Source: Microbacterium thalli
Lineage (GTDB): Bacteria; Actinomycetota; Actinomycetes; Actinomycetales; Microbacteriaceae
Direction: 5' to 3'
DNA length: 64,000 nt
NCBI RefSeq assembly: GCF_028737325.1
Contig: NZ_JAQZCH010000001.1
Span: 354,732 to 418,731 of the forward strand
Below are positions 1-2,637 of the stretch, piece after piece; the stretch's first letter is position 1; each line of letters opens with the position of its first letter. Under the pieces are notes generated by a model, which did not search any database, was not told the DNA's origin, and saw only the letters and a program-made list of their open reading frames with translations. The translations under genes were made by a program, and so were the position numbers.

Positions 1-803
1 CCGTGACCGCACCGATCGACCTCGACGGCACCGCCGTCTCCGTCATCGGCGACGCCAACAGCGACACCACCACCGGCGGCAACACCGGCAACACCGGCGG
101 CACCACCGGCGCCCCGACCACCGACGGCACCGACGGAATCGGATCCGGCACCCAGGTCATCGCACCCGTGACCGCACCGATCGACCTCGACGGCACCGCC
201 GTCTCCGTCATCGGCGACGCCAACAGCGACACCACCACCGGCAGCAACACCGGCACCACGGGCGGCACCACCGCTCCGGTGACCGGCGGCTCGGGCGGTA
301 TCGGCAGCGGCACCCAGATCGTGCTCCCCATCACGGCGCCGATCTCGGTGGGCGGCACGGCCGTCACGGTGATCGGCGACGCCAACACCGGCACCACCCC
401 CGGCACGACGCCCGGCACCACCCCCGGCACGACGCCCGGCACCACCCCCGGCACCACGCCCGGCACCACCCCCGGCACGACGCCCGGCACCACCCCCGGC
501 ACCACCCCTGGCACGACGCCCGGCACCACCCCCGGCACGACGCCCGGCACCACCCCGGGAACCAGCACGCCGGGCACCACACCCCGCACCACGCCGACGG
601 TCTCGACGGGTAGCCCCGCAGCGACCGCCGTCCGCAGCGAGGCTGCGAGCGTCGTCGCGGCTCCGGCGGCCGGTTCGACGGCCCGCCCGCTGATGCTCGC
701 CAAGACCGGCGGTGAGCTGCCGGCGGCTCTCGGCCTCGGCGCGCTGACCCTGGTGCTGGCCGGCCTGGTCCTCGTCGGACTGCGCCGCCGCGCCACGGTC
801 TGA
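1..803 (+). CDS. Chaplin-repeat surface protein with LAKTG sorting signal (5' truncated by window)
   Basis: The reading frame is open from the first base, so the true N-terminus lies outside the window. Three chaplin-like units (around window residues 1-22, 56-78 and 110-131; pattern TAPIxxxGTAVxVIGDAN) are separated by Gly/Thr/Asn linkers. A Pro-Gly-Thr-Thr repeat rod follows (about residues 130-194). The C-terminus has LAKTG at residues 232-236, a hydrophobic segment and an RRR tail, which is the layout of a sortase substrate. LAXTG is the class E sortase signal, and a class E sortase is encoded at 41.5 kb. A cell-wall-anchored amyloid-like surface protein is inferred. Unlike streptomycete chaplins, the units lack the usual Cys pair. 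Confidence 0.8.
   Translation, partial: VTAPIDLDGTAVSVIGDANSDTTTGGNTGNTGGTTGAPTTDGTDGIGSGTQVIAPVTAPIDLDGTAVSVIGDANSDTTTGSNTGTTGGTTAPVTGGSGGIGSGTQIVLPITAPISVGGTAVTVIGDANTGTTPGTTPGTTPGTTPGTTPGTTPGTTPGTTPGTTPGTTPGTTPGTTPGTTPGTTPGTSTPGTTPRTTPTVSTGSPAATAVRSEAASVVAAPAAGSTARPLMLAKTGGELPAALGLGALTLVLAGLVLVGLRRRATV
3..242 (+). repeat. Near-identical duplicated 75-bp chaplin repeat
   Basis: Bases 3-77 recur almost unchanged at 168-242 and encode the same chaplin-like unit. The third unit, from about 330, is diverged. The nucleotide-level identity of the first two copies suggests recent duplication or gene conversion. Confidence 0.8.
391..566 (+). repeat. Tandem Gly-Thr-Thr-Pro minisatellite within CDS
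   Basis: Alternating 12-bp units (ACCACCCCCGGC / ACGACGCCCGGC and variants) encode the GTTP repeats. The unit length is a multiple of three, so copy-number change would preserve the frame and vary the length of the wall-spanning rod. Confidence 0.9.
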
Positions 804-828: not shown

Positions 829-866
829 AGCGGATGCCGCAGGCCGTCGGGTCTGCGGCATCCGCT
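829..866 (+). terminator. Hairpin terminator built from the GGATGCCG word
   Basis: A perfect 14-bp stem (829-842 pairs with 853-866) with a 10-nt loop lies 26 bp after the stop of the surface protein. Both arms contain GGATGCCGC or its complement. There is no clear U-tract, which is common for actinobacterial terminators. Confidence 0.65.
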
Positions 867-890
867 CCGGCCTGCGCGAGGGCAGAAACG

Positions 891-926
891 ACGGATGCCG
901 CGAACCCGAAGGTCCGCGGCATCCGT
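891..926 (-). terminator. Hairpin terminator of rpsF-rplI operon, same word
   Basis: A perfect 12-bp stem (891-902 with 915-926) lies 17 bp beyond the rplI stop on the minus strand. Its arms again carry GGATGCCGC/GCGGCATCC, so it is a sequence sibling of the adjacent hairpin at 829-866. Confidence 0.6.
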
Positions 927-942
927 ACTCGTGCGCCAGGTA

Positions 943-1395
943 TTACTTGGCGGCGACCACCTGCAGGGTGATCACGGCGGTGAGGTCGTCACGCAGGCGA
1001 ATGGTCGCCTCGTGCTCGCCCACGGCCTTGATCGGCGCGGTGATGTGGATCTTGCGCTTGTCGAGCTCGCCCAGACCAGCGGTCTTGACGGCGTCAGCCA
1101 CGTCGGCGGGCTTGACCGCACCGAACAGACGGCCTTCGGCGCCGGCCTTGACCGACAGCTTGACCTTGTTCGACTCGAGGTTGTTCTTGAGGGCCACGGC
1201 CTCTTCGTGATCGTGGATCGCGCGGGCGTCACGGGCGGCGCGGATGGACGCCACCTGCTTCTCGCCACCGCGGGTCCAGGCCACAGCGAAGCCCTGGGGG
1301 ATGAGGTAGTTACGGGCGTACCCGTTCTTGACCTCGATGACGTCACCGGCGCTTCCGAGCCCGGCGACCTCGTTCGTGAGAATCAGCTTTGCCAT
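943..1395 (-). CDS. rplI: 50S ribosomal protein L9
   Basis: 150 aa, the usual length for bacterial L9. It starts [20 protein letters not shown] and keeps the N-terminal RNA-binding domain with the [17 protein letters not shown] signature, a central connecting helix and a C-terminal domain. It binds 23S rRNA near the L1 stalk. It is the last gene of rpsF-ssb-rpsR-rplI; the gap to rpsR is 11 bp. Confidence 0.98.
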
Positions 1396-1406
1396 GTCGG
1401 TGCTCC

Positions 1407-1661
1407 TTACCGGCCAGCGCCGGCGTAAGGCAGGAGCGCCATTTCGCGCGCGTTCTTGATCGCCTTGGCGATCAGACGCTGCTCCTGCACCGAGACACCG
1501 GTGATACGACGGGCGCGGATCTTCCCACGCTCCGAGATGAACTTGCGGAGCGTCGAAACGTCCTTGTAGTCGATGACGCCGACGCGGATCGCCTTCGCGG
1601 GGGCCGCGTTCTTCGCACCCTTCCGCGGCTTGCGGCGGTCGCCGGTTGCCTTTCCAGCCAT
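1407..1661 (-). CDS. rpsR: 30S ribosomal protein S18
   Basis: 84 aa, basic, with the S18 core [18 protein letters not shown] and the RRITG motif; binds 16S rRNA beside S6 on the small-subunit platform. No cysteine zinc ligands are present, so this is a Cys-less S18. The gap to ssb is 59 bp, longer than elsewhere in the operon. Confidence 0.98.
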
Positions 1662-1720
1662 TGTTTTTCCTTACGAGAGTGATGATCGGATGCCGCTGCG
1701 GGCAGCACCCGGAATCCGAT

Positions 1721-2248
1721 TCAGAACGGGGTGTCGTCGCCGTAGGAGGCGCCGCTGGTTCCCGGTGCGCTCCATGCATCCGGTGCGGAGGACCCCGGGG
1801 TCGCCCACGGCTCTTCCTGCACCTGCTGCTGCGGGCGCGACTGCTGACCGCCGCCGAAGTTTCCGCCACCGCCACCGCCGCCGGATGCCGCGCGCGTGAC
1901 CTGTGCGGTCGCGTAGCGCAGCGAGGGGCCGATCTCGTCGACCTCCAGCTCGATCGCGGTGCGGTTCTGGCCCTCACGGTCCTGGTAGGAGCGCTGACGC
2001 AGGCGGCCGGTCGCGACGACCCGCATGCCCTTGGTCAGCGACCCCGCCACGTGCTCGGCGAATTCGCGCCACACGGACGCGCGGAGGAACAGCGCTTCGC
2101 CGTCCTTCCACTCGTTCGCCTGGCGGTCGAAGGTGCGAGGAGTCGAGGCGATCGTGAAGTTCGCCACCGGCAGGCCGTTCTGCGTGTAACGCAGCTCGGG
2201 GTCTGCCGTGAGGTTGCCCACGACGGTGATGACGGTCTCGCCGGCCAT
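1721..2248 (-). CDS. ssb: Single-stranded DNA-binding protein
   Basis: 175 aa. The OB fold occupies about residues 1-115 (start [20 protein letters not shown]). A Gly/Gln/Ser-rich linker follows, and the C-terminus ends DDTPF, the acidic tip with terminal Phe that recruits SSB partner proteins. Start ATG at 2248 lies 5 bp after the rpsF stop. Its place between S6 and S18 is the classical arrangement. It protects ssDNA in replication, recombination and repair. Confidence 0.98.
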
Positions 2249-2253
2249 GTGCC

Positions 2254-2637
2254 TTAGGCCTTCGCAGCCTTAGCGGGGGCAGCAGCCTTGCGGGCGGCCT
2301 TCGCCTCGGAGCGCGCCTTCTCGGCGGCGACCTGTGCGATGGCCTCCTCGGCGCGCAGGACCTTGGTGCGCATGATCGACTCGCTCAGCTTCAGCTGGCG
2401 GTCGAGCTCCTGCGTGGTCTCGCTCGTCGCGGTGAAGTTGACGACGGCGTAGATGCCTTCGTTCTTCTTCTGGATCTCGTACGCCAGGCGGCGGCGGCCC
2501 CAGATGTCGACGTTCTCGATGGTTCCGCCGTCATTCGTGATGACCTTGAGGAACTTGTCAAGGTTGGGAGCAACCTGACGCTCATCGATCTCGGGCTGGA
2601 GAATCACCATGAGCTCGTACTGGTACGTGTGCGTCAC
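2254..2637 (-). CDS. rpsF: 30S ribosomal protein S6
   Basis: 127 aa with a GTG start. The choice is supported by an excellent Shine-Dalgarno AAGGAGGT about 6 bp upstream. The S6 ferredoxin-like fold ([24 protein letters not shown]) spans residues 6-98, and a Lys/Ala-rich tail follows, an extension often seen in actinobacteria. First gene of the operon; its promoter should lie in 2638-2785, shared with the divergent gene. Confidence 0.97.

Follow-up and report, generated by a model that had tools for sequence, protein, structure and literature searches.

A conserved, dispersed octamer with GGAT-core dialects in Microbacteriaceae resembles DNA uptake sequences and forms the arms of paired predicted terminators

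In Microbacterium thalli, the octamer GGATGCCG is present on both strands in numbers beyond those produced by codon bias, is sharply delimited, is conserved between species, is represented in relatives by dialects with a fixed core and forms inverted pairs at predicted terminators, and this set of properties is that of the uptake sequences of Neisseriaceae (DUS) and Pasteurellaceae (USS). The most likely reading, which we consider probable on the strength of this analogy, is that an uptake-sequence-like system has evolved independently in Microbacteriaceae. GGATGCCG would be its local dialect and, by the same analogy, probably works like an uptake sequence, membership in DUS or USS not being claimed. 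The initial annotation of the window (the whole stretch of 64,000 nucleotides analysed here) had proposed such a design from two hairpins, and the likeness exceeds what was seen then, as it now also covers the dispersal of copies over both strands, their conservation from species to species and the existence of dialects; the uptake function itself is an analogy.

The two hairpins lie in the 139-base gap between convergent genes, and open reading frames and Pfam agree with the earlier view that they end a surface-protein gene and the rpsF–rplI operon. The 3' part of the surface-protein gene (positions 3–803, plus strand) encodes two chaplin-type ChpA-C repeats (Pfam PF03777), as well as a long TTPG repeat tract (about 390–560) and a hydrophobic C-terminal tail with the final residues RRR. 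The operon rpsF-ssb-rpsR-rplI (943–2637, minus strand) was recognized by Pfam matches to L9, SSB and S6, the name of rpsR being assigned from sequence, and its last gene is rplI (943–1395, minus strand; Pfam Ribosomal L9). Hairpin 1 (830–865, plus strand; stem 830–845/850–865) and hairpin 2 (891–926, minus strand; stem 891–906/911–926) are located where they had been described and have stems of 16 pairs each. The RNA folding energy of region 820–880 was −44.3 kcal/mol on the plus strand (z −5.60) and −40.2 kcal/mol on the minus strand (z −5.29), while that of region 882–940 was −32.5 kcal/mol (z −5.00) and −36.4 kcal/mol (z −5.42), respectively, and none of 200 shuffles matched the native fold in any of these four foldings. 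The arms are indeed built from one word, with GGATGCCG at 832–839 (5' arm of hairpin 1) and 893–900 (left arm of hairpin 2) on the plus strand and its minus-strand copies, reading CGGCATCC, at 856–863 (3' arm of hairpin 1) and 917–924 (right arm of hairpin 2). The word occupies the outer portion of the arms, the inner portions of the two hairpins being unlike each other, and lies 28 nt downstream of the stop codon of the left gene and 18 nt downstream of that of rplI. A long U tract is absent from both hairpins, the rplI side running on as GTCGTTTC; the sole match of a consensus terminator scan was a 5-pair partial site within hairpin 2, and Rfam yielded no family at the hairpin site and only three tRNAs in the window. 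Both hairpins are predicted by sequence to be terminators.

A lack of enrichment of inverted pairs at gene ends throughout the genome had been named beforehand as refuting the proposal, and the proposal was not refuted. Pairs in hairpin order (CGGATGCCG, then CGGCATCCG within 3–24 bases) number 20 in the genome, compared with 4.2 expected from word copy numbers, five in the opposite order and none for a control word with the letters in reversed order. Single copies of the word far outnumber these pairs. Among the 120 family genomes, the 19 with at least 500 forward copies contain 314 pairs (92.6 expected), the excess being individually significant (p<0.01) in 11 of them and absent in some word-rich genomes (1 versus 2.9 in G008, 2 versus 2.1 in G006 and 12 versus 8.2 in G106). 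The expected placement at gene ends was also found: in the sampled loci of the M. thalli genome, 14 of the 29 pairs with a gap of 0–24 are intergenic, and 11 of these 14 (two of which have one 3' arm in common) lie no more than 30 bases past a facing stop codon, as opposed to 22% of random intergenic positions (p about 1e-5), although most of the loci (16 of 20) were selected for holding pairs and not at random. In the 53 named loci of GGATGCCG type described below, both pair orders are additionally in excess at gaps of 40–60 (21 and 14, versus about 5 expected for either order), which is probably due to the common ancestry of these loci.

The fate of such a hairpin could be followed at the 3' end of rplI, which was read in the 30 best-matching genus loci from 59 genomes, M. 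thalli included. Paired words no more than 30 bases apart are present in 13 of these loci, three more (L139, L147 and L163) have them slightly farther apart, and two have one arm. The remaining 12 contain no intact word, and the hairpin stem of most of them is of unrelated sequence. In L142, one of these 12, both arms of the hairpin are altered in a compensating manner. The position of the hairpin is thus retained while the word comes and goes. In L162 (genome G286), the stem of the terminator about 110 bases past rplI consists of GGATGGCG/CGCCATCC, and GGATGGCG is also enriched in Microbacterium oryzae (L205). Terminator stems may therefore follow the dialect, although the L162 locus (4.7 kb), with two copies of GGATGGCG, both in or near the hairpin, is too short to judge. 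Inverted pairs of the other dialect words are likewise too few to judge, those of GCAGGATC numbering two in G047 and one in G087 in hairpin order and none in the other; G106, with GGATGCCG, has two and six pairs in hairpin and opposite order, respectively.

The abundance of the word is not confined to gene ends. CGGATGCCG occurs in 760+777 copies in the 3.09 Mb genome, compared with 42+36 for the same letters in reversed order, and the window contains 39 forward and 40 reverse copies of GGATGCCG, of which all except the four hairpin copies are spread on both strands over positions 1688–62676. A 454-kb sample of the genome, composed of the window and 20 loci (16 chosen for inverted pairs, one for comEC and three arbitrary), holds 560 copies, compared with 53.5 expected under a second-order model. 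The octamer is sharply bounded, since one-mismatch neighbours within it reach 0.4–2.8 times expectation and the base before it hardly matters. Ranking of words by the highest-order Markov model in the window was dropped in favour of the second-order model and a codon-shuffle null, because the enrichment of sub-words masks the word. Synonymous-codon shuffling, which preserves the protein and the codon usage gene by gene, gave 106.5 +/- 7.8 copies in genes (maximum 126 in 200 shuffles) compared with 483 observed, and all six classes of frame and orientation are enriched. The spacing of copies is near random (mean 778 bases, CV 1.04), no even spacing being found in the 454 kb, although regular intervals might be expected of a tag for evenly taken fragments. 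Only one of the 90 five-kilobase bins of the sampled genome, L030:1–5000, has no copy of GGATGCCG, and this segment is possibly a recent insertion.

These data bear on the barely credible alternative that codon usage alone, combined with ordinary terminators whose stems are alike by chance, accounts for the pattern. The concentration of genic copies in a few frames (184 in sense frame 2, 148 in antisense frame 2 and 103 in antisense frame 1), as well as the 12 of 30 rplI terminator hairpins with no intact word in either arm, would suit such an origin, but the explanation fails on the codon-shuffle null. Moreover, the density of the word is higher in spacers (1.8 per kb) than in genes (1.16 per kb), single copies are far more numerous than pairs, and conservation between species is double that of permuted words.

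A short, frequent and dispersed word could also serve as an oriented signal for recombination or chromosome segregation, as Chi or KOPS do. Chi and KOPS signals are polar, and it is on polarity that this highly improbable alternative fails, as the strands are balanced not only in the window but also over 21 stretches (264:295), and a test for heterogeneity between stretches gave no sign of local bias (chi-square 8.1, 21 df).

The comparison of related species indicates that something maintains GGATGCCG. In 22 disjoint species pairs of 80–94% identity, drawn from named loci nearly all labelled Microbacterium and each read in both directions, the word was unchanged in 62% of 555 readings, while permuted letters were unchanged in 33% of 50,193 and one-mismatch neighbours in 33% of 1,853; of the 20 pairs that gave five or more readings, 19 had it ahead of these controls. 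The named loci nearest to M. thalli, from Microbacterium sp. SMR1 and cf332, encode a LeuS that is 93% identical. Named Microbacterium-like loci of at least 12 kb (72 used, from 80) further divide into 53 of GGATGCCG type and 19 others, namely eight of GGATCC type (M. azadirachtae and M. indicum among them), M. oryzae, with abundant GGATGGCG in one locus (0.71 per kb), L171, which has GGATGCGG, and nine with neither GGATGCCG nor any other clear word. The eight GGATCC-type loci contain CGGATCC at 2.0 per kb (0.35 in the 53) and GGATGCCG at 0.15 per kb (0.96 in the 53). Of the GGATGCCG-type strains, M. testaceum StLB037 (L177) has 1.33 copies per kb. Each Microbacterium group conserves its own word and not that of the other group. 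In GGATCC-type loci, CGGATCC was kept in 53% of 759 readings (37% for permuted words) and GGATGCCG in 21% of 58 (29%), whereas in GGATGCCG-type loci GGATGCCG was kept in 68% of 1,078 (36%) and CGGATCC in 25% of 161 (45%). The counts of this double dissociation come from overlapping species pairs, and the ten GGATGCCG-type loci used for them were hand-picked.

Such replacement extends over the family. When every 8-letter word was scanned for in 64 genomes of the family (12–454 kb each), GGATGCCG proved to be enriched in many, while in relatives, including other Microbacterium, it is replaced by GGATCC, GCAGGATCC, GGATGCGC and other words with a GGAT core. GCAGGATC(C) is enriched in G004, G087 and G047, and GGATGCGC/GGATGCGG in G100 and G020. 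G007 and G042 have GGATGCCC or GGATGACC, and GGATCC with a flanking G or C is enriched in G034 as well as G186, a species of the same genus as M. thalli. The enriched word is TCCGGATC in G096 and AGCGGATC/GCGGATCG in G005. Under the codon null, the top word includes GGAT in 29 of the 64 family genomes and in none of 14 genomes from other families of the order; when the eight highest-ranking words are considered, GGAT is found in 41 of 64 and one of 14, respectively, and none of the 14 sampled has a GGAT word among its top four. Whole-genome counts confirm one dialect switch, to GCAGGATCC, of which there are 624 copies in G004, 833 in G047 and 839 in G087 versus at most 169 in each of the other 117 genomes, these three being poor in CGGATGCCG (191, 87 and 198 copies, respectively). 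In G087 (loci L060, L059, L061 and L054), a second word, GCAGGAGC, is enriched (51 versus 5.6) beside GCAGGATC (52 versus 5.0), so that two dialects are possibly present within one genome. On a LeuS-ComEC-HolA tree built from 62 genomes, the dialect labels are more clustered than shuffled ones, requiring 24 changes compared with 29.9 (none of 200 as low), with three changes for the GCAGGATC label; labels taken from 20 kb are noisy, as G078, G069 and G079 were labelled 'none' and have many copies genome-wide. Strong enrichment of CGGATGCCG is restricted to the family: of 119 genomes sampled in the order, 111 represent 19 other families, and these reach at most about 4.5 times the control and mostly 1–2.5 times. 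Within the family, the 20 members with genomes of up to 1.8 Mb have few copies of CGGATGCCG (7 to 111).

Conservation, density and dialects would be expected, too, if the word were the site of an abundant intracellular protein of nucleoid organization, repair or segregation, the specificity of which has drifted by lineage with no role in uptake. This drifting DNA-binding protein is the best rival to an uptake-sequence-like system, although we regard it as unlikely. The switching of many hundreds of sites within a genus would be easier by biased uptake or conversion than by site-by-site selection, and we know of no intracellular protein of such a kind, which also counts against it.

Another alternative, which is very unlikely in our view, holds that over-representation results from a DNA methylase together with mismatch repair and not from uptake, as for a HIP1-like word. 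In its favour, GGATG and GGATC resemble the sites of known restriction-modification enzymes. However, all eight bases are needed, as neighbours altered outside GGATG stay near 1.3–2.8 times expectation. The cyanobacterial HIP1 described in the available part of PMC4390886 provides a precedent for over-represented octamers that can be tied to a methylase, and it resembles GGATGCCG as a strongly over-represented octamer of unproven function. HIP1 is nevertheless a palindrome and constant in all instances described in that part, whereas the main word here is non-palindromic and has dialects that are mostly non-palindromic as well (unlike it, the GGATCC dialect is a palindrome), and a HIP1-like origin fails on symmetry and constancy.

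The closest likenesses are those to the uptake sequences. According to the accessible portions of PMC3630211 and PMC2397512, DUS of Neisseriaceae occur in thousands of dispersed copies (here many hundreds) and as inverted pairs placed as terminators, a function predicted from sequence in Microbacteriaceae. The dialects of DUS also have a fixed core and follow phylogeny well (available part of PMC3630211), while those of Microbacteriaceae follow it loosely. The core is CTG in DUS, as the same portions describe it, and GGAT here, and GGATGCCG lacks CTG. The first copy in the window (832–839) includes six letters, ATGCCG, that also form the 5' end of the 12-mer DUS of the meningococcus given in the accessible text of PMC5031613, which is probably a coincidence because the DUS core CTG is missing from GGATGCCG. 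DUS have the receptor ComP in Neisseria, whereas no receptor candidate came to light for the Microbacteriaceae word, the host of which is a single-membrane actinobacterium. USS of Pasteurellaceae, as presented in the consulted sections of PMC12616744 and PMC5031613, are similarly a dispersed, over-represented 9-mer with fixed-core (GCGG) dialects; they differ in sequence, and for the function of the Microbacteriaceae word they offer an analogy only.

Natural transformation that depends on Flp/Tad pili is described for the actinobacterium Micrococcus luteus in the available text of PMC4322843, with comEA, comEC and tad-like genes as in Microbacteriaceae; the expressions 'uptake sequence', 'sequence-specific' and 'homologous DNA' do not occur in its main text. 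In M. thalli, comEA (SLBB and HhH domains) adjoins comEC (L033), and Tad/type IV platform genes are found in the genome. The check for competence genes suggested by the initial annotation gave ComEC in 118 of 120 family genomes and ComEA in all 45 searched, and it was uninformative because both are near-universal in the family, whether or not a word is evident. ComEC and ComEA were therefore rejected as predictors of which genomes have a word. Genes for type IV filament or Tad platform proteins (T2SSF) are somewhat associated with the word, as at least two matches at E<=1e-6 are present in 20 of 24 genomes that have a word and in four of 13 that have none, as judged from 20–80 kb samples or genome counts (Fisher p 0.003, kinship uncorrected). 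This comparison covers the 37 of 45 genomes for which the word status was established (G243, G289, G261, G267, G272, G279, G109 and G090 were left out), and its p value is soft because G017, filed as without a word, may be misfiled, having 89+98 genome-wide copies of CGGATGCCG compared with 9+12 of the control.

In an uptake-sequence-like system, the word would be bound by a putative surface protein of the competence apparatus, which may be a Tad/Flp or type IV pilin or a partner of ComEA. The cell would then import or recombine DNA of its own kind more often, copies would accumulate because word-bearing fragments have an advantage, and dialects would arise as the receptor drifts. The two hairpins of the window would be a by-product, facing copies forming a strong GC-rich stem at which transcription ends. 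Counting against this reading are the uneven spacing of copies, the word-rich genomes with no excess of hairpin-order pairs, the nine Microbacterium loci with no clear word, the richness of phage Owens in the word (see below) and the presence of ComEC and ComEA in genomes with no evident word. It appears marginally better than an even chance that this is a third sequence-tagged DNA uptake system, independent of those of Neisseriaceae and Pasteurellaceae and not preceded by any other in single-membrane bacteria, and that it comprises at least six GGAT-core dialects, at least two and probably three of them within Microbacterium. The accessible part of a 2025 paper gives uptake sequences as known from two families only. 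Among the top-ranked open-access matches no report of an uptake sequence in actinobacteria or Gram-positives was found; nor did the searches yield a result on DNA uptake or transformation in any of the Microbacteriaceae, and none of the matches listed for the letters of GGATGCCG, judged by title and start of abstract, is about a genomic word.

If this reading is true, a change of tag and receptor can be observed between close relatives, namely among the dialects of Microbacterium, uptake tags need no outer membrane, and natural transformability of Microbacterium and its relatives is suggested. A comparative test of tag–receptor co-evolution would also be possible, because the dialects differ inside one genus. 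Even if the word does not serve uptake, the existence of a conserved octamer that varies by dialect throughout an actinobacterial family calls for an explanation, and none was found in the open-access papers searched.

Microbacterium phages, considered as a clean negative control, gave a mixed result, four of the six records being read in part. Five records together hold 22 copies of GGATGCCG (13.8 expected), and the small phage Owens (L255, 1–17445) holds 14 (1.7 expected), a density like that of host chromosomes. Finally, two loci filed under other organisms, L191 (titled Stenotrophomonas maltophilia P13, contig 292) and L192 (Planococcus sp. APC 4015), have a leuS about 80% identical to that of Microbacterium and are probably the result of contamination or mislabelling.
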